Below, piece after piece: positions 6,469-19,311 of a stretch of 64,000 bases of DNA. The stretch's first letter is position 1. Each line of letters begins with the position of its first letter. The notes beneath the pieces were generated by a model, which made no database searches, was not told the DNA's origin, and worked only from the letters and a program-made list of their open reading frames with translations. This stretch comes from Candidatus Micrarchaeum acidiphilum ARMAN-2 (GTDB lineage Archaea; Micrarchaeota; Micrarchaeia; Micrarchaeales; Micrarchaeaceae): positions 188,001 to 252,000 of the forward strand of contig GG697240.1 in NCBI GenBank assembly GCA_009387755.1, in the 5' to 3' direction. Position numbers and translations under genes: made by a program.

Positions 6469-9400
6469 TTATTTGCATGTCAGTGACGAAGCCGATATCC
6501 ATCCGCAGTTTTCAGATGATGAGCATACGTTTCCGCCCTGGTCGTATGCACTTTTGTTCCCCTGCGCAGAAGCCAGGCATTCTATGCCTATGCCCGTCGA
6601 ATTGAATATGTTGTTCTGGAAGCTGTCCGCAGAGGACCCATATAGGTATAGCCCTAGAGTGCTCTGCGGCGGGGCAATGTTGCCCTGGAAATCGGTGCTG
6701 CTGGTATTGTATGCGTAGTAGGCTATTGAGCCCGTTGCGTTGTTGTACTTAATGCTGCCGGAAGTGGAGTTTGAGATGTTTATCGCTATGTAATCAGTAA
6801 GCACATTGCTGCGCAGTATGCTGAACTGCTTCGACATGTTTACGGATATTGCGGATGCGCTCGGGGCGAGTTTCGTGGAATTCACGTATACCGTTGCGTT
6901 GATGATTGAAACGCTGGTATTTGTTGCGGTGATGGGCGTAGCGAACCCCTTCAGGTAGCAGTTCTCGATCTTGGAGCTTCCGGAATGCGCGAATGCTGCA
7001 AACGTTCCGCCGCTGTTTGATATTATTGTATGGTTGTTGCAGTTGAGTGTCACTCCGGAAGAATATATGCCGTAGCATATGTTGCCTGACTCGTAAAGCG
7101 CGTCTGTTGAAAGAGAGTATGTTGTTGGGGTCAGGGCGACCTGGCAGTCTGCGCTAGGCGCAGTCGGCGAAAGCGCGGCTAGCCAGTGGCATCCGATTTT
7201 CTTTGTGCCGTAGTTGACCCCGCCATTCTCGGAGTTGAGATTGCTGTCCTGCGGGGCGCACACGTAATCCTCGTAGCCGCTCAGCTCCATGTAGTTGTTT
7301 GAAATGTTATTGCCCTGCGAAGCTCCGGAAAGCTGCATGCCAATGTGTGCGTCAAGGCCGGTATTGTTCGCAATTGTATTCCTTGTGGAATTTTCAATTA
7401 GCATGGACACCGAGGTAGGCCTTGAGTTCGTCATGTTGTTGGCCATGAATATGATTCCGGAGGATTTGTCTAGCACCACGTCATAGTTGGAATTGGATTC
7501 GGCCTTGCTCTTGACAATGCTGCTGGCGGATACGTTGCTCAGGGTAATTCCGGTTCCGCCAAGACTTGCGTTGAGCCCGCTTACCCGGATGTTGCGCGCA
7601 TTGGCCGCATACAGCCCATACCTGAACGATGAAAGGGTGCAGTTCGTTATGGTTATGTTGCTATGCCCGGAGTCGAATATCCCATAATTCGTTGTTGAGG
7701 GCAGCACCTCGGATATCCTGTTGCCGTTGCAGGACAGCTTCACATTGTTCGTATTTATTGTGAGGCAGCTGCCAGCCCCAGCAGCGAGGCTTCCTGACAG
7801 AGAGTAGTTGCCAGGCCTGTACAGGCTGCCGCATGAAAACACAGGATATACTTTCAGGTATGGTTCTTCGTAGTTCCTGCACGTTGACCAGTGCGTGTCG
7901 CTCAGGCCGCACACAGTAGAGCCCATGAAGTTGTCTGTGCTGTTGGCGGAATTTGGCGTTGCGTACAAGTCTATCTGCGAGTTGTTCACAGCGACGCCTC
8001 CGGTAAACGAATTGCCTATGGAGGAATTCACGTATATGCCGTACGAGTTGCGCGAGAAGTTGAAGTTTTTGATTATGCTGCTGGACGAATTTGAAATATA
8101 AATGCCGTTGGTGTCGTTCTTTGCGTCAACGCCAGACATGGTTACAAGATCTGATCCTGACAAGGTTATTCCCGTATAGCTTTTCGAGAAGCTTGAATTG
8201 TATATAGAGGAGTTTGTCGCGTTTTCTATGAGCGCCCCGAAGGTGGTGCCGGATACCCTGCAGTTCTCTATTTTGAATAGGGTCTTGCCCTTTGCCATTA
8301 TTCCGACCGTAGCATTTGTGATTGTGTGGTTGTTGCAGTTGAGCACAGCAAGAGGGGAGTTTATTGTTATGCACGGAACCGCATAACTGAATATGTTTAT
8401 GCCCGAGTTCGCGCCCTTCAGGTACATTGTGAGGTTGTCCTGGAGGGTGTATGTGCCGGGGCTGTCTATGGAGCCGCAGGTGGTCACAGTAGGAGACAGC
8501 ACGACATTGGACAGGTTATCAGGGAGGTTTATTCCGCTGCATGTTAGGAAGTCGCAGCCGGTGTTGTTGTAGCATAAGTTATCTATTGCAGAGCTTGCCT
8601 TGGGGAAACCCGCTTCGGATGAGCACACGAATGATGTGGGAGTAAGGTTTACGCTGTTGTAGTAGAATTTATTGCCCTGCGAGAATACGTTGACACCTGT
8701 TACTGCGCTGTGACCTATAGCATTCTTTATTACCGTGGTGTTTGCCGATCCGTTCCCTATGAAAAGCGCACCCTGAGCGCTGGTTGCATTGTAAAGCTTG
8801 TTGCTAGATATTGTGCTGCCGTTGGTGTCGTTCAGGTATATGTCAGACATCACGTTGAATGACACATTGCTTTCGGATACGTTTATTTTAGATGAGGAGT
8901 ACGCGTAGACGCCGTATGAGAAATTGGATATGGCGCAGTCCTGCACTGTAACGTTGCTTACGCCGCTTGCATTGATCCCGACGCTGAAAGGAGGCTTTCC
9001 TATGAGTGGAGCAGAGCCCACTATCTTGTTGCCGTTGCAGATCAGCTTCACGTTGCTTGAAGTCACGCTTATGCAAGTACCGTTGGTAATTTTCGTGGAT
9101 ATTGGAGCCTCCTGATAATACAGCCCTGGGGACCTTATCGTTGTGCACGATGTGAAGGATGAGACTGGATGCGCAGGTATGCTGGTTGTTGAAATCGTGG
9201 TTGTGACGTGCGGCTTGCTGATAAACATGACACCTGCCACCGCTATGACAGCTATTACAATTATTATAGGTATAAGCATCTTCTTGTTTGATTTCCTCTT
9301 TTCTTTTTTCAGTTCTCCGGACCCCAGCTCTCCGCTGGGCGGCTGCGCTATCGGATTTTCCGGTGTTACGTTTACACTCATCCCCTGACCGTACTGCTGC

Positions 9401-9543
9401 GGGCCCTGGCCTATGTATCCGGACTGCGGGTATTCGGGCTGGCCGCTTGGATTCTGAGGGTTATTCTGGTCTGGGGAGCTCGGTGCATAGGGATTTGGTA
9501 TGCCCTGGTTCTGGTTTGTATAATCATTTTGAGGGCTTTGCAT
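6469..9543 (-). CDS. Large membrane-anchored parallel beta-helix surface protein
   Basis: 1024 residues. The N-terminus (1-85) is a disordered Pro/Gln/Asn/Gly-rich cytoplasmic tail, followed by a basic KKEKRKSNKK stretch and one membrane helix (LIPIIIVIAVIAVAGVMFIS, about 90-109). The rest is extracellular, Asn/Ser/Thr-rich, with many N-glycosylation sequons and repeated short units such as NNTGLDAHIGMQLSG and SNGIYISNSSSSIIKNF. Those are the periodic pattern of right-handed beta-helix (NosD/PbH1) folds. Three blocks beginning with a Cys and PGxYxL (for example SPGLYYQ, SPGTYTL, RPGNYSL) show internal duplication. An A+T-rich TATA-like stretch lies about 30 bases before ATG 9543. Probably a cell-surface glycoprotein; ligand unknown. 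Confidence 0.75.
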   Translation of the reverse strand: MQSPQNDYTNQNQGIPNPYAPSSPDQNNPQNPSGQPEYPQSGYIGQGPQQYGQGMSVNVTPENPIAQPPSGELGSGELKKEKRKSNKKMLIPIIIVIAVIAVAGVMFISKPHVTTTISTTSIPAHPVSSFTSCTTIRSPGLYYQEAPISTKITNGTCISVTSSNVKLICNGNKIVGSAPLIGKPPFSVGINASGVSNVTVQDCAISNFSYGVYAYSSSKINVSESNVSFNVMSDIYLNDTNGSTISSNKLYNATSAQGALFIGNGSANTTVIKNAIGHSAVTGVNVFSQGNKFYYNSVNLTPTSFVCSSEAGFPKASSAIDNLCYNNTGCDFLTCSGINLPDNLSNVVLSPTVTTCGSIDSPGTYTLQDNLTMYLKGANSGINIFSYAVPCITINSPLAVLNCNNHTITNATVGIMAKGKTLFKIENCRVSGTTFGALIENATNSSIYNSSFSKSYTGITLSGSDLVTMSGVDAKNDTNGIYISNSSSSIIKNFNFSRNSYGIYVNSSIGNSFTGGVAVNNSQIDLYATPNSANSTDNFMGSTVCGLSDTHWSTCRNYEEPYLKVYPVFSCGSLYRPGNYSLSGSLAAGAGSCLTINTNNVKLSCNGNRISEVLPSTTNYGIFDSGHSNITITNCTLSSFRYGLYAANARNIRVSGLNASLGGTGITLSNVSASSIVKSKAESNSNYDVVLDKSSGIIFMANNMTNSRPTSVSMLIENSTRNTIANNTGLDAHIGMQLSGASQGNNISNNYMELSGYEDYVCAPQDSNLNSENGGVNYGTKKIGCHWLAALSPTAPSADCQVALTPTTYSLSTDALYESGNICYGIYSSGVTLNCNNHTIISNSGGTFAAFAHSGSSKIENCYLKGFATPITATNTSVSIINATVYVNSTKLAPSASAISVNMSKQFSILRSNVLTDYIAINISNSTSGSIKYNNATGSIAYYAYNTSSTDFQGNIAPPQSTLGLYLYGSSADSFQNNIFNSTGIGIECLASAQGNKSAYDQGGNVCSSSENCGWISASSLTCK

Positions 9544-9643: not shown

Positions 9644-9741
9644 GCCCCAGTAGCTCAGTGGTAGAGCGCCTGTCTCGTAAACTTCTAAGGCATTGGAGCC
9701 ATGAAAACAGGAGGTCGAGGGTTCAACTCCCTCTTGGGGCT
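9644..9741 (+). tRNA. tRNA-Thr(CGT) with canonical-position intron
   Basis: Acceptor stem GCCCCAG pairs with TTGGGGC (one G-U), the D-arm is normal, and the T-arm is GAGGG/CCCTC around TTCAACT. The anticodon stem is CCTGT (9669-9673) and ACAGG (9707-9711). The loop is C-T-CGT-A-A once a 26-nt insert at 9680-9705 is removed, placing the intron at the canonical 37/38 position. Discriminator U73 agrees with archaeal tRNA-Thr. It decodes ACG. It directly borders the accessory island on its 3' side. Confidence 0.92.
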
Positions 9742-10200: not shown

Positions 10201-10217
10201 TAAATTGATTGATTAAA

Positions 10218-10904
10218 ATGGGGTTTGTTTCAAAACTTATTGGAGTTATTGTTGTTATCGGCATCTTGGGATCCATAGTATATGGTGCATATTATTTTGA
10301 TTTATTTGGGCTTCAATCATATATACCAATTTCAGGTATTCCAGGAATAACAGCACCAAATTCTCAATTTATAAATGGCTCTCTTGGAAATAATGTAAAT
10401 GCAAATTATAGCTCACAATACAGACTTGCATTAAATATAACAAAGAAGTATAATGAGCCAATAAAAAAGATAATACTTTTTTCAGGAAATTTAACAAATA
10501 GTTTAATAAATGCAAATAATGAGCAACAGTTCTCAACACAAGGAACATCTCTATATCAAGTAAAATATAATGGATTTTATATTCCAATTTCTCAAAATAT
10601 TTCAGATGAGTTAGTAAATGACTTAAATTATATCCCTTCATTAGTTGGCAAAACAGTTTATTTAGAATTTACTGTTGGTGGATTTAATAAGAAGGTTTTT
10701 AATATTACTCAAGCTCCATATACAGTTAAATCAGAAAGAATAGTTGGACCAAAAGTATTTTGGTATCTAACACAAGCAACAGGAATACCAGATTCTACTG
10801 CAATAAATTGGATTCATGCAAATGAAACAGTTATGAATAAAAGTGTATTTGGAATTGTTGGCATATATTATAATGGGACAGAGATTTTAACTCCGACAGG
10901 TTAA
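10218..10904 (+). CDS. A+T-rich, N-terminally anchored exported protein, unknown function
   Basis: 228 residues from ATG 10218 (an in-frame TTG at 10209 is the alternative). One N-terminal membrane helix (LIGVIVVIGILGSIVYGAYY) is followed by an extracellular domain with many NxS/T sequons and no Cys. Codon choice is visibly different from all surrounding genes: almost every third position is A or T (AAT, ATA, TTA, AAA dominate). This points to recent transfer, from a low-GC archaeon or a virus. It lies between the tRNA-Thr and the ankyrin cluster. I do not recognise the family. Confidence 0.7.
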   Translation: MGFVSKLIGVIVVIGILGSIVYGAYYFDLFGLQSYIPISGIPGITAPNSQFINGSLGNNVNANYSSQYRLALNITKKYNEPIKKIILFSGNLTNSLINANNEQQFSTQGTSLYQVKYNGFYIPISQNISDELVNDLNYIPSLVGKTVYLEFTVGGFNKKVFNITQAPYTVKSERIVGPKVFWYLTQATGIPDSTAINWIHANETVMNKSVFGIVGIYYNGTEILTPTG

Positions 10905-10993: not shown

Positions 10994-11512
10994 TTAGTTG
11001 TTATCCTGCTGGCGCCTCAGCACCCCGGATAATTCGGGTTTGAGTCTGCTGGCGCTTCCTTCTTCTTTTCTTATGCTGTTAGTTATACGATTCTTAATCC
11101 GTGCAAGCATGATGGAATCCAGGTACTCTGCTATCTCTGCATGTCCGTTATCTTTAGCCATATCAGAAGCGGTTTTTCCATCATTTCCGGTTATGCTTAA
11201 ATCCGCGCCATGTTCGGCAAGAAACTTTACAATGTCGAAGTGGCCTTGCGAAGCGGCTAGCATAATTCCGGTCAATCCGGCGCTATTCTTTTTATTTATA
11301 TCGACGCCTTGGGCCAATAGCCTTTCTACTTTGCCCAAATCCCCTTTGCTTGCTTCATTTGGCCAATCATCTACCGAAGTCCTGCTTTTGGACCATGCAG
11401 GTGTCCATGAAGAGCCACCATCCTCGGTTATTCCCGTATTATACACCAAATTTATTTTGCGTGTGGTTGCACTGATAATTGTTGTTTTTATGCGTGCTGC
11501 ATTCTGGCACAA
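10994..11512 (-). CDS. Ankyrin-repeat protein 1 (172 aa)
   Basis: The middle contains about three ankyrin repeats (GLTGIMLAASQGHFDIVKFL and GKTASDMAKDNGHAEIAEYL are clear). A polar 48-residue N-terminus with GGSSWTPAWSKS precedes them. The C-terminus, LKPELSGVLRRQQ, matches the tails of the two ankyrin proteins downstream. The only upstream start in frame is TTG 11512. It is preceded by a promoter box at 11527-11552 almost identical to that of the MoxR operon. It therefore appears to be transcribed separately but co-regulated. Ankyrin repeats bind proteins, so it is probably a partner or adaptor for the MoxR/VWA pair (inference). Confidence 0.8.
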   Translation of the reverse strand: MCQNAARIKTTIISATTRKINLVYNTGITEDGGSSWTPAWSKSRTSVDDWPNEASKGDLGKVERLLAQGVDINKKNSAGLTGIMLAASQGHFDIVKFLAEHGADLSITGNDGKTASDMAKDNGHAEIAEYLDSIMLARIKNRITNSIRKEEGSASRLKPELSGVLRRQQDNN

Positions 11513-11526
11513 CGTATAAGCAACAC

Positions 11527-11552
11527 AGGTAGCGTTCAGATATATAAAGTTT
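11527..11552 (-). promoter_or_regulatory. Promoter box shared with the MoxR operon
   Basis: On the minus strand this reads (CAAAC)TTTATATATCTGAACGCTACCT, a TATA box with about 12 conserved bases downstream of it. The copy before the MoxR gene (16728-16753) differs at only a few positions. The TATA element lies about 30 bases before TTG 11512, so a nearly leaderless transcript is expected. Confidence 0.6.
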
Positions 11553-11562
11553 GCCCTTCTTT

Positions 11563-11636
11563 GGGCTTTGTTGAGAAAGTCGATTTTGTTGGTAAAGCAA
11601 TAAAAATGTTGATAAGGTCCGACTTAATCAACAAGG
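11563..11636. repeat. Dispersed hairpin repeat, copy A
   Basis: Begins GGGCTTTGTTGAGAAAGTC and ends GACTTAATCAACAAGG. Like the other copies it has two or three direct TTGTTGA-type units on the left and one inverted unit (TCAACAA) on the right, so the ends can pair as an imperfect hairpin. The right end is less perfect than in copies B-D. It sits between two ankyrin genes. Confidence 0.6.
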
Positions 11637-11723
11637 ACGGAAATTAGCAGAGGAATAACTTTATTTTAAACGTCTCTGCCAAGAGCAGTTAATTACCTGA
11701 TTAAAAGCTGCTCGCTAAATATT

Positions 11724-12410
11724 CTAACGCCTCAGGACGTTTGAAAATTCAGTTTTGAGTTGGTTTTTGCTGCTAGCTTCGCGGACTGTGCCTCTTGCAT
11801 CAGAATTTATTTCCTTGGCATCTTTCTGCATTAGGGAATCCAAGTACGCCGCTATGTTCTCGTGCCCGTTTTCTCTTGCCAGAATTGCAGCAGTAATTCC
11901 ATTATAGTCAGTCATGGTCTGGTCTGCGCCGTGCGCCACCAAATACTTTACAATACTTAGATCTCCTTTCATGGCAGTCAGTAGGAGAGCTGTGCGGCCG
12001 CTAGGATCTCTTGCATTTACATCGGCACCGGCCTCGACTAAGTACTCTACATAATTTAGGAGACCAGAATCAGCAGCCCATAAAAGAGCTCTTACATCAA
12101 CTTTAGCGCCGTGCGCCACAAGAAACTTTAGAATATCTAAGTAAAGATTCTGCACGGACAGCATAACTGCCGTCGATCCGTCCTTGCCCTGTTTATTTAC
12201 ATCTGCACCGTTTTTAACCAGCAACTCTACAATATTAAGATGGCCGCCGGGGATAGCCATTAGCAGAGCCGTGCGCCCATCGCGCGTTTTTGCATTTGCA
12301 TCTGCGCCATCTTCCAGTAATTCTTTTACCGTGTTTATGTTACCATTGGCGGCAGCACGGACCAGCTTTGCATTAAGCCTTTCTTCTAGCATATCTGTAA
12401 AAATTGGCAT
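11724..12410 (-). CDS. Ankyrin-repeat protein 2 (228 aa)
   Basis: About five consecutive ankyrin repeats cover residues 10-180 (for example GRTALLMAIPGGHLNIVELL and GRTALLLTAMKGDLSIVKYL). A charged linker and the C-terminal tail QLKTEFSNVLRR follow. That tail is nearly identical to the one in ankyrin protein 3 and close to that in protein 1. ATG 12410 has a GGGTGA ribosome site 6 bases upstream and lies 16 bases after ankyrin gene 3, so it is the last gene of the moxR-vwa-ank-ank operon. No enzymatic domain, signal peptide or membrane segment is visible. Confidence 0.88.
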   Translation of the reverse strand: MPIFTDMLEERLNAKLVRAAANGNINTVKELLEDGADANAKTRDGRTALLMAIPGGHLNIVELLVKNGADVNKQGKDGSTAVMLSVQNLYLDILKFLVAHGAKVDVRALLWAADSGLLNYVEYLVEAGADVNARDPSGRTALLLTAMKGDLSIVKYLVAHGADQTMTDYNGITAAILARENGHENIAAYLDSLMQKDAKEINSDARGTVREASSKNQLKTEFSNVLRR

Positions 12411-12426
12411 TTAGTTCACCCGTATT

Positions 12427-13062
12427 TTATTGACGCCGCAGGACGTTTGAAAATTCTGTGTTGAGTTGATTTTTGCTTCCAACTTCACTCTTCGTGGTGT
12501 TTGTTATTTCATTCCTCATCCGAATTAGGGAATCAAGGTATACTGCCACATCATTATAGCCGTTGCGTTTAGCCTGCATGGCGGCGGTTTCTCCATTATT
12601 ATCTTTTATTGTCAAATCCGCACCGAGCTTCACAAGCAATTCTACAACTTTAAAATCGTTTTGCGAAGCCGCGAGCATCAGTGCCGTCGATCCGTCTTTG
12701 TCCCTCATATCTATTTCTGCTTTGTTTTTAACCAGAAATGAGATAATTTCCATAGCGGCCCCCACATCATAAGCATTATCAGAAATCTCCATAAGCGCTG
12801 TCCGCCCATTGTCCGTTTTTACATCCACAAGTGCACCGTGCTCCACAAGCAATTTTACCACATCGGGATGGCGGCGATTTGCGGCCCAAATAAGGGCTGT
12901 CCAGCCGTCTTCGCCCTGTTTATTTACGTCTGCGCCTCGCTCCAAGAGCTTTTTAACCTTGTCTATGTTGCCTTCCTTTGCTTCGTATAGCAAATCGTCC
13001 TTTGGGACTTCATGATGCCGGCTTGTAAAGTAGTAGTCACCATCTCCCGTCGATCCTCCCAT
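12427..13062 (-). CDS. Ankyrin-repeat protein 3 (211 aa)
   Basis: Ankyrin repeats span residues 20-175, with clear units GWTALIWAANRRHPDVVKLL and GSTALMLAASQNDFKVVELL. One repeat is lengthened by an insertion (AYDVGAAMEIISFLV). The N-terminus MGGSTGDGDYYFTSR is polar. The tail QLNTEFSNVLRRQ is shared with ankyrin proteins 1 and 2. Its ATG lies one base after the VWA gene stop, indicating tight translational coupling to the VWA protein and hence a likely physical partnership. Sequence is close to protein 2, so tandem duplication is likely. Confidence 0.88.
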   Translation of the reverse strand: MGGSTGDGDYYFTSRHHEVPKDDLLYEAKEGNIDKVKKLLERGADVNKQGEDGWTALIWAANRRHPDVVKLLVEHGALVDVKTDNGRTALMEISDNAYDVGAAMEIISFLVKNKAEIDMRDKDGSTALMLAASQNDFKVVELLVKLGADLTIKDNNGETAAMQAKRNGYNDVAVYLDSLIRMRNEITNTTKSEVGSKNQLNTEFSNVLRRQ

Positions 13063-13063
13063 A

Positions 13064-15181
13064 TTACCGCCTTAATCTATTTTCCAACTGCTTTTTTATA
13101 TTGTCTACTATGCCCTTTATGCCTTTTTCAAGGACCTTTTCTACTTCGTCCATAGAGCTGACATTAAAATACCAATCGCTCGGTGAGAATATTTCCACCG
13201 CGCGCGCGGCTTCCCTTGAGATAAAGATTGTAAATACATTTACATTCTTCATTGCATTCTTTAGGCTATTCAGGGCATTTTTGGTTTCCTGGCCATTGTT
13301 TGGATCCCCATCCGTTATTATGAAAAGGGTTTTGTCAAAATTGCTTTTGTCTTTCTTCATCAGATCCATGGCATAATAAATTGCAATATCGGTAGGTGTG
13401 TCGCCCATAGCAGCCAGGTTCATTAGCATCTTCCTATCAAACTCGAATACATGGGTGCCGTCTGATCCGTAAAAACCAAACATCCTTAGATGCACGTATT
13501 TAGAGCCGTCCAGGCTATCGTGTATACTTCCGAGTATCCTCTTGGCTGCATTTATCTTTTGGCCCCCCATTGAGCCAGATATGTCAAGGAGCATCCATAT
13601 TTCTGCGCCTGCGTCCTTGATGTGCCTAAGGTAAGGTTTAGAAATGTATGCAGGATCCTTTGTTACTTCATACCTTATAAGTTTTCTTATATCGGGCCTG
13701 ATTCCGCTTGTGCCACCGGTAAGATCCCTCCGCGGATTGTTCAAAAGTTCAATTTCTTCAAGCATCTTTTTTATTTTGGGGTTCGGCCTTATTCTTTCAT
13801 TGTACTGTTCGACAGGACCGTCATATACGGTTATTGCACCCACGCCGTTTTTTCCGTGGCCGGTTATTTCGAATACCTCTTTAGAAGATGACTGATCAGA
13901 CGTTCTGTTAATGGTTCTATCAAGATTATGAATGATTGGATATTTTGATAGGGGCATGTTCTTCAGCAGGTTTAATATTTCGCCTCTGCTGTTATTGAGT
14001 ATTTCTTCTTCGGACCCCGTTAGGTCCTTGTTTAGCTCATTATTGCTTTTAGAGCCGGTTTTGTCACCCATAATCTCTCCTAGAGTAGGCACCAGCTGCG
14101 ATAGAAGCTTGATTTTCTCTTCGATTGCTTTTGAGATCGAGGCTGCGCCGTTGCCAGGCGAGCCTCCTGCGCTGCCTTTGGATTCCATGCCACAACTATC
14201 GGCCTGCGCTCCGTTGCCTGAGTTGCTTCCCTCTGCTTCTTCAGCAGATTTTGTACCGGATGCACTACCGCTGCCCTCATCTGACTTTTCTTTATTTGAA
14301 GCATCCTGTTCCGAGTCTTTTCCTTTGCCGGGCGATATGCCTTCTTTCGGCTGGCCCTGGCTTTGGTCAGAACCGTTCCCCTTAGTGCCTTGCTCGTCTT
14401 CAGCGTTGCTACTGCGGCTACCGGCAAGCACACCGTTATACTGAGTGACGTCAGGCTTGAACTGGAGCTTCTCGCGCTCAAGAGTTTCATTGAAGAGGCT
14501 GAGGATATTGTCGGTTACAACATAGGTGCCCTTCCAGTCGGTGTTTTTGACCTTTTCGAGCTCTTCGGCAAACTTGTCATAGTAGGGTTTGACTTTTGCC
14601 GGAAGCTTAGACTCAAGCGCTATGACATTCCCTCCTGCAATTCCAAAACGCGCAATAAGCAGCGCTTCCTCGAAACCAATTGGGTTTTGTTGTGCAGCGT
14701 TAAATTCGCTTTCGTGCTTGCTCTTAATTCCTTCTATAGTAATATTGTAAAGCGGTATAAAACTTCTCATGCTTCCTGGGAATACCGTGGTCCAGACGCT
14801 TTCTATTCTGCAGTCTTCCACTATGTTTTCGATTTGCTTGACAAATTCGATGGGCATGTTGTGTTTTTCGGAGAGATTTTTTACCATTTCTTCGGTTGCC
14901 CCAAAATTTGTAAGCCAGGTGTGTGCACATTCATGCTGTAGCAGAGCGCGGGCTACACTGACTCCATTCTCTCCAGAATCCGCTATAAGCTTAGAATTGG
15001 AAGACAGATATATTCCATATTCGTTTGGACCTTTCTTGAAACTTGCTGCTGGCGGGCCGCCAGGTATGGAATCGGTTAAGATAAGCGTTAGTTCTCTGTC
15101 TTCGAAGCTGCTGATTAGATCTAACTCGTCTTTCAATAATGATGTATCAAACTTTTTCTTTGTTTTGGCAGTTCCAATCAA
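13064..15181 (-). CDS. VWA-domain protein with HExxH metallopeptidase-like motif (MoxR partner)
   Basis: 705 residues. HECAH at about 83-87 sits in a helix (LLQHECAHTWLTNFG), as in predicted VWA-associated metal-dependent peptidases. Residues of about 255-350 are a low-complexity Gly/Ser/Lys/Glu linker. The C-terminal 190 residues form a von Willebrand A domain with a MIDAS motif (DISGSMG, about 532) and later T and D positions (DTPTD, ITDGDPN). The C-terminus ends ENRLRR, resembling the LRR ending of the ankyrin tails. The start is TTG 15181; no ATG lies nearby. It is 23 bases behind the MoxR gene. VWA/MoxR pairs generally remodel or activate target proteins; the target here is unknown. Confidence 0.85.
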   Translation of the reverse strand: MIGTAKTKKKFDTSLLKDELDLISSFEDRELTLILTDSIPGGPPAASFKKGPNEYGIYLSSNSKLIADSGENGVSVARALLQHECAHTWLTNFGATEEMVKNLSEKHNMPIEFVKQIENIVEDCRIESVWTTVFPGSMRSFIPLYNITIEGIKSKHESEFNAAQQNPIGFEEALLIARFGIAGGNVIALESKLPAKVKPYYDKFAEELEKVKNTDWKGTYVVTDNILSLFNETLEREKLQFKPDVTQYNGVLAGSRSSNAEDEQGTKGNGSDQSQGQPKEGISPGKGKDSEQDASNKEKSDEGSGSASGTKSAEEAEGSNSGNGAQADSCGMESKGSAGGSPGNGAASISKAIEEKIKLLSQLVPTLGEIMGDKTGSKSNNELNKDLTGSEEEILNNSRGEILNLLKNMPLSKYPIIHNLDRTINRTSDQSSSKEVFEITGHGKNGVGAITVYDGPVEQYNERIRPNPKIKKMLEEIELLNNPRRDLTGGTSGIRPDIRKLIRYEVTKDPAYISKPYLRHIKDAGAEIWMLLDISGSMGGQKINAAKRILGSIHDSLDGSKYVHLRMFGFYGSDGTHVFEFDRKMLMNLAAMGDTPTDIAIYYAMDLMKKDKSNFDKTLFIITDGDPNNGQETKNALNSLKNAMKNVNVFTIFISREAARAVEIFSPSDWYFNVSSMDEVEKVLEKGIKGIVDNIKKQLENRLRR

Positions 15182-15204
15182 TTTAAGCGCCTCTTGGCTG
15201 GCAG

Positions 15205-16638
15205 TCAGCCAGTCTTACTATAATCCATAGAGCTACCTTTTGAATCTGATGATTTGTCGTCTATTTCTAATTTGTCTACACCATAGCCAGGGAATATGTC
15301 TTTTACTTTTTCAACTATTGCCTTTCTGTCTTCGGGATCTGTATAGTTGTTCACAATAGCGTTTGTAATGGCGGTATTAAACGCTGCTTGTGGGTCTTTA
15401 AATGCTTCCTGATATGCAATTGTTAGATCTATCGTGTTGGTAAGCAAGGCGGTAGATATCGGCATTATGTCCTTATCAGTCTTTCGAGTATGCTGGGCTA
15501 GTTTTATTAGGTTCTTTATAAGTCCTACGTCCTTTGTAAAATGCTCTAGAATCTTTTGCTCTTCAATCTCTGTGGGAAAATCAAGCGCTATCTTTGCTAT
15601 GAATCTCCTCATCAGATCTATATTGATCTGATTTATTCCGCCGTACCCGTTGCCTATTACGTTCGTAGTTGCCACGATAAAAAGCTTTGAATCTGCGTTA
15701 AGGAACCACGCCTTTTCGCCAAAAATAACTGCCCTTCTTTCATCGAATAGTGGGTTGAGGATTTTCTGCGCTTCTGGGGTCAAAGCAGAAAGCTCATCAA
15801 GCACCAAGATAGCGAACCCATGCTTGTTTGCCTCTTCGATTGCAATTGGCAAAGGCCCTTTTTGGAATTTTACGACGCCATTTTCAAGTACTTCGTGGCC
15901 TATAAGCGAATACGCATCTGAATCCCTAGAGCATTGAACGTTAATCAGTGGTATAATAGACGAGTGCGGCGCAGGTTTATTCCTGTCGTTCCATGCTGCA
16001 GCAAGATATTCGATGGATAAAGTTTTGGCTATCCCGGTTGGGCCGTACACCATTGTTGGTTTATCCGAAATAACATTTACAATAAGGGAATTCAAGTATG
16101 TTTCTGATTGCCCTCCTGAAACGGTGTAGAAATTTGGTAATTTGGAATCATTGGAGAAATATTTTACGCATGACAAGTCTTCCAGAATTTTGTTATCTGG
16201 GCGCTCTGAGGATTTATATAATGCATATTCGAAGGCGTGCTCTTTTATGCTGTCCAGCGCTCCTTTCATGCCTTTAATCGCATTTAGGTCCTTATCAGAT
16301 AACAGGTTGCCTATCTCAATTTCCAGGTTAGCATAGAATTCTTGCAGCTTTGCGGCATTTTCTGGGTTCCGGGTAAGAAGTGCTTCCGCGACAAAATTGT
16401 AAGGAGCTTCAATTCCATAGGCCGGCAGCATATCCTTGGCTAAACCATTATAATTGTTGAAGTCTATCACTCTGCCTGCAAGCCATGCGGCTCTGTTTAT
16501 TAATTCTAGCTCTTCTCCGCTTACCTTAGTTGCAAGGTCGTTGCTAACGGCTTTTATCAAGTCTTTAATTTCGAATTTATCAGCCTTATCTTCACGTAGA
16601 TAAGCTTTTGGTGTTGTACTTGTCATCTTTTCGCTCAT
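15205..16638 (-). CDS. MoxR-type AAA+ ATPase
   Basis: 477 residues from ATG 16638, chosen because GGTG lies 6 bases upstream; ATG 16650 is in frame but has no such site. Walker A is GPTGIAKTLS (about 198), Walker B is AILVLDELSAL (about 280), and a sensor-1-like stretch reads KLFIVATTNVIG. A Gly-Tyr loop and FPTEIEEQKILEHF lid region follow, all as in MoxR/CobS-like ATPases. The first 190 residues are helical and not recognised. It heads the operon moxR-vwa-ank3-ank2. It should hydrolyse ATP and act with the VWA protein on a target, perhaps selected by the ankyrin proteins. Confidence 0.88.
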   Translation of the reverse strand: MSEKMTSTTPKAYLREDKADKFEIKDLIKAVSNDLATKVSGEELELINRAAWLAGRVIDFNNYNGLAKDMLPAYGIEAPYNFVAEALLTRNPENAAKLQEFYANLEIEIGNLLSDKDLNAIKGMKGALDSIKEHAFEYALYKSSERPDNKILEDLSCVKYFSNDSKLPNFYTVSGGQSETYLNSLIVNVISDKPTMVYGPTGIAKTLSIEYLAAAWNDRNKPAPHSSIIPLINVQCSRDSDAYSLIGHEVLENGVVKFQKGPLPIAIEEANKHGFAILVLDELSALTPEAQKILNPLFDERRAVIFGEKAWFLNADSKLFIVATTNVIGNGYGGINQINIDLMRRFIAKIALDFPTEIEEQKILEHFTKDVGLIKNLIKLAQHTRKTDKDIMPISTALLTNTIDLTIAYQEAFKDPQAAFNTAITNAIVNNYTDPEDRKAIVEKVKDIFPGYGVDKLEIDDKSSDSKGSSMDYSKTG

Positions 16639-16727
16639 TTTATGCACCATTGATTTATTGCATAAGAACGTACCTATAACGCAATTTTATGCATTCGTGT
16701 TTTAGGCATAACTTACGAAATGCTTAA

Positions 16728-16753
16728 GGTAGTTTCCAGATATATAAAGGTTT
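16728..16753 (-). promoter_or_regulatory. MoxR-operon promoter box
   Basis: On the minus strand it reads AAACCTTTATATATCTGG then AAACTACCT. It is almost the same as the box before ankyrin gene 1 (11527-11552), including bases well outside the TATA element, so the two units probably respond to the same factor or arose by duplication. Confidence 0.6.
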
Positions 16754-17692: not shown

Positions 17693-19018
17693 TCAGCTTC
17701 TTTCTATAGGCGCGGTCATGCAGTGCGCGCCGCCGTACCCGCCGGTAAGATTCTGCAGGTTTACTGCATAGAAGTCTATCCCGTTCTCAAGCAGCTCCCT
17801 GCTGTGCGGGAATATCTGACCTGTGCTCCTGAAGCGGTTGTATTCCTTTGACATTTCGGCATGCAGCGCGCCGTACCTGTGCGGATCAGCCCTTGCCTTA
17901 AGCGCAATGTATTCCAGGGATGACTTTGCGATGAGTTCGGTGCTTATTGCGATTATGACGCCGTCCTTTACGCACAGGAAATTCGATGCGTATGAGAGCT
18001 GCTCCAGCGTGGAAAGTTCTATGATGTTGAATCCCTTGCCTTTTATGTATTCGTAGAGACTCTGCCTGCCACGGGCCTTTGAGTACCTTCCCCTGCCTTC
18101 TTTTTGGTATACATCCACAGAGGCGTGCCTCATCAGCAGACCCGATCCGACTACGGTTGAGCTTCCTGCTACGTTAAAATACATGTCAAGGTGCATGTCA
18201 AGCATCGGGTCCGGCTCGCTACCAGGCATCAGTGGGTGGCTTGGCTGGTGCACGACAGCCACCTCGTCGAAATCCGCACCGTACTTGAGCATCTGGCTTA
18301 CGCCTGCGGCGTTTGTCCGGTCTCCCTCACCCAGCAGTGCGAAGTCCTTCATCGGCATAAAATCGCCGCCTTCTATGATGGCGTTCTCTTCGGCTTCGTG
18401 CACTATCTTTATTCCGAGGGCCTTCCAGAGCAGTTTGGTTAGTTCCGTTTCATGCCTCCTTTGGGGCTTAGCCATTCTTGAAATGAATACGCCCTTGTCT
18501 GTGACAAGTTGCTGGTCCCTCATGAAATACAGGTTTGTCAGCGGGTCTGTGCTTGTTATCCTTAGCTGGGCTGGCTCATTCTTCCTTGTGCCGTGCAGGT
18601 CTATTGTGGGCCTTGAAACCAGTATGTCGAAAAAATGGTCTGAATCGTAAACGTTTACGTTCTTTTTGAGTTCTGCCCTTGCCGCTTTTGCTTTCTTTGG
18701 ATCGCCTAGATAGCCGAGCGCGCCCATTGCGTTGTCTATCAGCATGGCCCGCAACTCAGCATTCCTGTCTGCGGCCTTCAGCACCGCGTCCCTGAGCTTC
18801 ACGACCTTTATTCCGAAGTCATCCTTTAGCATTTCCTCGAATCTTCTGTGCTCTGCTATTGCCGAATGTCTGTTGAATGCGCGCTCGTAGAGCGAAGCCT
18901 CTGGATTCAGCAGGCCAAGAAACATTTCGAACCCGGGCCGGTGTATGGCAACCTCCTTCAGCGTGCCCCACTCGCTGCGTATCCTGCCCCTCGTATTCTC
19001 ACCAGTGTGTTTACGCAT
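17693..19018 (-). CDS. arcA: Arginine deiminase
   Basis: 441 residues, slightly longer than the usual ~410. It shows guanidino-modifying motifs: FMRDQQLV, the EGGDFMPM block, the HLDMYFNVAG block, and the C-terminal catalytic Cys in GGAHCMTAP (C433). It converts arginine to citrulline and ammonia, the first step of ATP generation from arginine and a source of alkali in acid environments. No ornithine carbamoyltransferase or carbamate kinase gene lies next to it in this window. Confidence 0.93.
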   Translation of the reverse strand: MRKHTGENTRGRIRSEWGTLKEVAIHRPGFEMFLGLLNPEASLYERAFNRHSAIAEHRRFEEMLKDDFGIKVVKLRDAVLKAADRNAELRAMLIDNAMGALGYLGDPKKAKAARAELKKNVNVYDSDHFFDILVSRPTIDLHGTRKNEPAQLRITSTDPLTNLYFMRDQQLVTDKGVFISRMAKPQRRHETELTKLLWKALGIKIVHEAEENAIIEGGDFMPMKDFALLGEGDRTNAAGVSQMLKYGADFDEVAVVHQPSHPLMPGSEPDPMLDMHLDMYFNVAGSSTVVGSGLLMRHASVDVYQKEGRGRYSKARGRQSLYEYIKGKGFNIIELSTLEQLSYASNFLCVKDGVIIAISTELIAKSSLEYIALKARADPHRYGALHAEMSKEYNRFRSTGQIFPHSRELLENGIDFYAVNLQNLTGGYGGAHCMTAPIERS

Positions 19019-19213: not shown

Positions 19214-19311
19214 GCAGGGATGGCGGAGCACGGTCAAACGCGACGGACTCAAGATCCGTTGACTTAGGTCTACGGGAGTTCAAAAAATTTGAACAAATCT
19301 CCCTCCCTGCA
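19214..19311 (+). tRNA. tRNA-Leu(CAA) with insertion in the T-loop
   Basis: Acceptor GCAGGGA pairs with TCCCTGC (19304-19310), discriminator A 19311. The D-arm, anticodon stem ACGGA/TCCGT around CTCAAGA (anticodon CAA) and the long variable arm typical of Leu are all present. The T stem GGGAG/CTCCC is perfect, but its loop (19279-19298) has 20 nt instead of 7. Removing 13 nt restores TTCAAAT. This looks like a non-canonical intron in the T-loop. Confidence 0.88.

Follow-up and report, generated by a model that had tools for sequence, protein, structure and literature searches.

Ankyrin-repeat genes with common terminal tags adjoin a MoxR ATPase and an HExxH-VWA protein in Micrarchaeota: a candidate protein remodeller with interchangeable targeting subunits

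A MoxR-VWA operon and its ankyrin genes

The window, that is, the whole stretch of 64,000 nucleotides that was analysed, belongs to a genome of 1.01 Mb that is 96.6% complete (G000), and the five genes considered here all lie on its minus strand (Table 1). Four of them form an operon in the order moxR, vwa, ank3 and ank2, with successive gaps of 23, 1 and 16 bases, and an extra ankyrin gene, ank1, follows after a further 211 bases; it has no early ATG and would begin at a TTG. The initial annotation had described these genes from the letters alone, and its gene order, its gaps of 1-23 bases, the Walker A and B motifs of MoxR and the MIDAS and HECAH motifs of the VWA protein were all confirmed. 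Its claim of a matching promoter box proved to be stronger than it was put: in a scan of the whole 1.01 Mb genome that allowed up to three mismatches, the 23-base pattern CTTTATATATCTGNANNCTACCT occurred at only two sites, upstream of ank1 and of moxR, and the reversed control gave no matches. Given that the pattern is unique to those two sites, the moxR and ank1 transcription units probably share regulation. If the four ankyrin genes of the genome were placed at random among its ~1000 genes, the chance that three of them would fill the three slots adjoining vwa is ~2e-8.

The cluster had also been said to lie beside a tRNA, and two tRNA genes were found to bracket the module, both of which were detected by Rfam and missed by ARAGORN. 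The genes neighbouring moxR and vwa are ankyrin, HTH, arginine deiminase-like and NosD-like genes. The arginine deiminase-like gene (17693-19018, minus strand) has a copy that is 89% identical in the same-genus genome G250; five further members of the family were tested for it and gave no match. When G250 was compared for an empty site, its contig was seen to end inside the module's flanking gene. Next to ank1, a stretch of 36% GC encodes a protein that is hydrophobic over an N-terminal stretch and matches nothing in Pfam (10209-10904, plus strand), and a NosD/beta-helix repeat protein of 1024 residues with a hydrophobic segment is encoded at 6469-9543 on the minus strand.

Table 1. Features of the module and its borders, in window coordinates
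Feature	Position	Strand	Description or basis
tRNA gene	9644..9741	+	Rfam; insert in anticodon loop (presumably intron)
ank1	10994..11512	-	172 aa or shorter, TTG start; Pfam Ank models
ank1 C-terminal tag, SRLKPELSGVLRRQQDNN	10997..11050	-	tail comparison
ank1 promoter, module-specific	11527..11549	-	pattern match
ank2	11724..12410	-	228 aa; Pfam Ank models
ank2 C-terminal tag, KNQLKTEFSNVLRR	11727..11768	-	tail comparison
ank3	12427..13062	-	211 aa ankyrin-repeat protein; Pfam Ank models
ank3 C-terminal tag, NQLNTEFSNVLRRQ	12430..12471	-	tail comparison
vwa	13064..15181	-	705 aa; VWA E=3.5e-11
MIDAS DISGS, VWA protein residues 533-537 (D533-x-S-x-S)	13571..13585	-	alignment
NIVEDCRIE, VWA protein residues 119-127	14801..14827	-	N, E, D, R, E invariant in plasmid proteins too
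HECAH, VWA protein residues 83-87	14921..14935	-	HExxH in 5/5 archaeal relatives and two plasmid proteins
moxR	15205..16650	-	MoxR-type AAA+ ATPase, 481 aa; AAA_5 E=5.9e-10
Walker A GPTGIAKT, MoxR residues 203-210	16021..16044	-	sequence, alignment
moxR operon promoter, module-specific	16727..16749	-	pattern match
tRNA gene with insert	19214..19311	+	Rfam

Both Walker motifs of MoxR (Walker B being LVLDE, by alignment) are located in its AAA_5 domain, the only PDB matches of the protein were CbbQ and NorQ, and a match to the CbbQ_C domain fell below the Pfam cut-off. The VWA protein is composed of an N-terminal HExxH domain, an acidic low-complexity linker and a C-terminal VWA domain in which the MIDAS is complete; a structure model of it was discarded as unusable (pLDDT 33, built from two sequences). 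Residues H83, E84, H87, N119, E122, D123, R125 and E127 do not vary between the archaeal proteins and the VWA proteins encoded on Aeromonas and Pseudomonas plasmids. The genes of these plasmid proteins lie in AAA-DUF3150-VWA operons, and the proteins are identical to the window protein at the HExxH, NxxEDxRxE and MIDAS residues. The conserved NxxEDxRxE, which the initial annotation did not include, is probably the third metal-ligand helix, and the HExxH domain may be an active peptidase.

A MoxR/metallopeptidase-vWA pair has been described in jumbo phages (PMC7824862), and the window pair corresponds to it, with an N-terminal HExxH domain and a MIDAS-bearing VWA domain in one protein encoded next to moxR; the plasmid operons have this arrangement as well. 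In addition, a contig with a terminase gene (L069, G028:C15) encodes a CbbQ-like MoxR and an HEAGH-linker-VWA protein. Based on the plasmid operons, the jumbo-phage pair and this contig, the core pair is of a known kind that is linked to mobile elements. What sets the window-type pairs apart is the tagged ankyrin arrays beside them, whereas the plasmid and jumbo-phage pairs neighbour DUF3150 or virion genes. The same succession of N-terminal domain, low-complexity linker and C-terminal VWA domain is found in NorQ-NorD and CbbQ-CbbO, which include the nearest MoxR relatives in the PDB; those systems, however, serve one fixed client enzyme and have no adaptor array, and no gene for a nitric oxide reductase or rubisco client was among the genes neighbouring the window pair. 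The NorQD machine inserts a finger of its VWA domain into the AAA+ pore, and as ATP drives rotation, the linker that joins this domain to the N-terminal one is stretched (PMC13036017). The window protein has the NorD-like domain order with the HExxH domain at its N-terminus.

Ankyrin genes beside MoxR-VWA pairs across the phylum

A profile search covered all 301 genomes of the phylum, most of which are draft or metagenome assemblies, and identified window-type VWA proteins in five genomes, all of one family. In three further Micrarchaeota genera, represented by G050, G001 and G130, ankyrin genes adjoin moxR-vwa, each time at a different genomic place, and the proposal that these genes constitute a module thus survived the co-occurrence check that the initial annotation had suggested. 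In G001 a contig break falls within vwa, so that moxR and the N-terminal half are at the end of one contig and the C-terminal half and the ankyrin genes at the end of another. In G091 the contig starts just upstream of vwa, and the genome yielded no ankyrin gene; the same-genus G250 (71% completeness) has tailed ankyrin genes and no vwa was found in it. Weak VWA matches were also obtained in G053, G140 and G215, and another in G211 was rejected as an unrelated VWA surface protein. Of two broad scans of genome contigs, the first returned no window-type relative and the second only G050, and a scan of viral contigs returned none; a six-sequence alignment was too diverse for searches of this breadth. 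Ankyrin genes as such are present in 140 of the 301 genomes, most of which have no MoxR/HExxH-VWA pair.

The linkage is not confined to window-type proteins, and the co-occurrence check thereby extended to other MoxR/HExxH-VWA families. Reading of ankyrin-rich loci elsewhere in the phylum brought up a locus in another family (G118) in which moxR, an ankyrin gene, a gene for an HExxH-linker-VWA protein and a second ankyrin gene overlap one another, and this VWA protein has no detectable similarity to that of the window. The second VWA family to which it belongs is present in 15 genomes, with HExGH and an N...D...N signature in 15/15 and the MIDAS conserved. Arrays with ankyrin members flank the loci in G118, G217, G180, G122 and G170, a 1241-residue ankyrin protein is encoded between moxR and vwa in G038, and at several loci of the second family no ankyrin gene lies nearby (G122:C13, G150, G103, G265 and G226). 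A triad in G247 likewise has the moxR-vwa-ank order of the window; unlike in the window, its MoxR belongs to the bpMoxR family and its VWA protein is without HExxH.

Terminal tags and recombining arrays

The ankyrin proteins of the source genome end in a common C-terminal tail, which was not part of the initial annotation, and neither was a fourth tail-bearing gene, ank4, that lies 88 kb from the module (G000:C7:110.9 kb). The tags of ank1-3 and the remote ank4 are LKPELSGVLRR, LKTEFSNVLRR, LNTEFSNVLRR and LKPDIQNVLRT. In the predicted structure of ank2, an ankyrin solenoid (pLDDT >90) is followed by a long helix and then by the tail (<50). Tags of the LKPxIxxLR[TR] type are found in the window genome and its nearest relative, G050, and other genomes have other sequences: G001 and G130, whose machines are more diverged, have different tags, each of them constant throughout its own genome, and a remote ankyrin gene in G001 bears that genome's own tag. 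Conversely, the ankyrin proteins of G006, which is without the MoxR/VWA pair, stop after the last repeat. Ankyrin genes with common C-terminal tails were also seen in G175 (L085, G175:C1) and G225 (L089 and L090), two genomes in which a search with three queries gave no MoxR/HExxH-VWA pair.

The G050 array comprises 38 tandem ankyrin genes, all open, which occupy 34 kb around moxR-vwa (15 before and 23 after) and 3.7% of a 929 kb genome, and 34 of 36 junctions overlap by exactly 11 bp. This array is known from one assembly; that all 38 frames are open and the junctions regular speaks against an assembly error. In its tag, L-[KR]-x-x-[IL]-x-x-[IML]-L-R-T, positions L0, [KR]1, L8 and R9 are kept in 38/38 proteins and T10 in 37/38, with up to five codons used for a single residue and a variable linker ahead, and pN/pS, here estimated from non-independent, recombining pairs, is 0.40 for the tag versus 0.75 for the linker. 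The tag is therefore constrained at the protein level; its final residues overlap the start region of the next gene, and for these the constraint may act on the DNA sequence.

According to a direct seed-and-extend scan, 57% of the G050 array is covered by near-identical blocks (231 in all, each 60 bp or longer), repeats that a blastn self-comparison under-reported. For example, 570 bp at 99.8% identity span both the gene 30/31 and the gene 35/36 junctions, and those genes differ elsewhere. The array is a recombination mosaic. The G050 MoxR is itself a tandem duplicate of 813 aa with two AAA modules (L038:16710-19151), and a 322 bp block that is 95% identical between its halves suggests that they undergo gene conversion. 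In designed ankyrins, the repeat positions used for binding are those randomised in the libraries. At these positions pN relative to overall pS was 1.22 (0.99-1.50) in G050 and 1.81 (1.14-2.19) in G001, versus 0.47 and 0.68 elsewhere, again from non-independent pairs, which is suggestive of diversifying selection. Positional entropy of the repeats was dropped as a module-specific sign of diversified binding, as ankyrins without the module were equally variable there.

Outside the window-type family, tags are shared across folds. The N-terminal motif [LI][IF][DE]xx[RK][RKM]xx[IVL] was present in 19/26 array proteins of G118, G217, G180, G122 and G038 versus 10/883 other ORFs, a descriptive comparison given that the motif was derived from the tested proteins and that the background includes overlapping copies of the same loci; it is common to ankyrin and unrecognised proteins. 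Nine related non-ankyrin genes surround moxR-vwa in G158 (L126, G158:C4), eight of whose products have a complete N-terminus and share an PPRIRNIDKVLRELR-like motif there; the one that was tested had no Pfam match. In G027, a HEAT-repeat protein opens a moxR/HEAGH-VWA operon, and its C-terminal region is common to dispersed ankyrin proteins encoded elsewhere. The best reason to regard the tag as a plug is that different folds bear one and the same tag.

Possible function and competing explanations

We favour, with a probability of roughly 0.55, the interpretation that the module is an ATP-driven protein remodeller, possibly proteolytic, with interchangeable targeting subunits that dock by means of the tag. 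MoxR would form a ring on which the VWA protein would be seated as NorD is on NorQ, a geometry that we infer by analogy, and cycles of ATP would move the VWA domain against the linker-tethered HExxH domain at the N-terminus. Each ankyrin protein would be an adaptor whose repeats bind one target and which is docked on the MoxR/VWA machine by its constant tag at the terminus, so that the machine could remodel or cut the bound protein, and the tandem arrays would provide many specificities that are altered by recombination between copies. Of the roles put forward in the initial annotation, that of exchangeable adaptors is supported by terminal tags common to variable bodies (ankyrin, HEAT and unrecognised), and those of inhibitors or toxin-like substrates are not, as no toxin domain was found. 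The targets may be viral, or may belong to hosts or competitors, and we speculate that the module acts in conflict with viruses or hosts given two features of the core pair: its likeness to predicted conflict systems and its presence on a contig that also bears a terminase gene.

The principal alternative, which we regard as unlikely, is that the ankyrin proteins are clients, the tag being a signal for processing, assembly or export, and that MoxR/VWA acts on them by loading, cleavage or export, one conceivable destination being the host archaeon of these presumed symbionts. Ankyrin effectors are common in symbionts, and tags at one end of variable proteins encoded in arrays, the presence of the same tags on unrecognised proteins and an HExxH domain that could in principle clip a tag are all consistent with this idea. 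However, the operons examined encode neither membrane nor secretion components, the ankyrin proteins have no signal sequence at the N-terminus that is obvious by eye, and the constraint sits on a short hydrophobic-basic motif rather than on a cleavage-like site. It is very improbable that expanding ankyrin genes simply landed by a MoxR/VWA pair and have similar tails only as recent duplicates; ankyrin genes are indeed common in the phylum and array copies do recombine, but the recurrence beside distinct MoxR/VWA families goes most of the way to refuting such a coincidence, and the tag common to different folds, the synonymous changes beneath a constant tag and the unique promoter of both transcription units also speak against it.

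A further explanation, which we consider less probable than the delivery of clients, is that this is a MoxR-vWA ternary conflict system in which the ankyrin proteins detect invaders and activate the HExxH domain, the effector, with no substrate delivery. MoxR-vWA cores with variable third components, encoded by adjacent genes as in the window, are predicted conflict systems (PMC7159879), and DGR-diversified sensors have been reported in this context (PMC10907252). The third components described there (PMC7159879) are VMAP, iSTAND, FtsH and beta-propeller, with ankyrin unmentioned, whereas none of these four was present in the five window proteins, and no effector domain or EAD was detected in them by Pfam, NCBIfam or PADLOC, which weighs against this explanation even though the HExxH domain could play the effector part. 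PADLOC matched no whole anti-phage system, giving only generic ankyrin and weak MoxR matches, and no MoxR-ankyrin system of the window kind was found in the open-access PMC papers searched.

Returning to the remodeller with docking adaptors, the MoxR/metallopeptidase-vWA pair is already known, and it is the tagged ankyrin arrays beside it that differ from known systems. The well-studied MoxR-VWA machines each have one or a few fixed clients. The presence of 3 to 38 tagged binding proteins beside the machine suggests that it can be aimed at many different proteins. In these very small genomes, the targeting part appears to have been replaced by many versions that share one plug. More tentatively, and with considerable doubt, it is possible that recombining repeat-protein arrays with one constant tag program a remodeller or protease against many proteins, and so amount to a repertoire for protein-based recognition that DPANN archaea store in their genomes. 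If true, this would account for the many ankyrin genes kept by some Micrarchaeota and would represent a natural, programmable, ATP-driven protein-targeting system.
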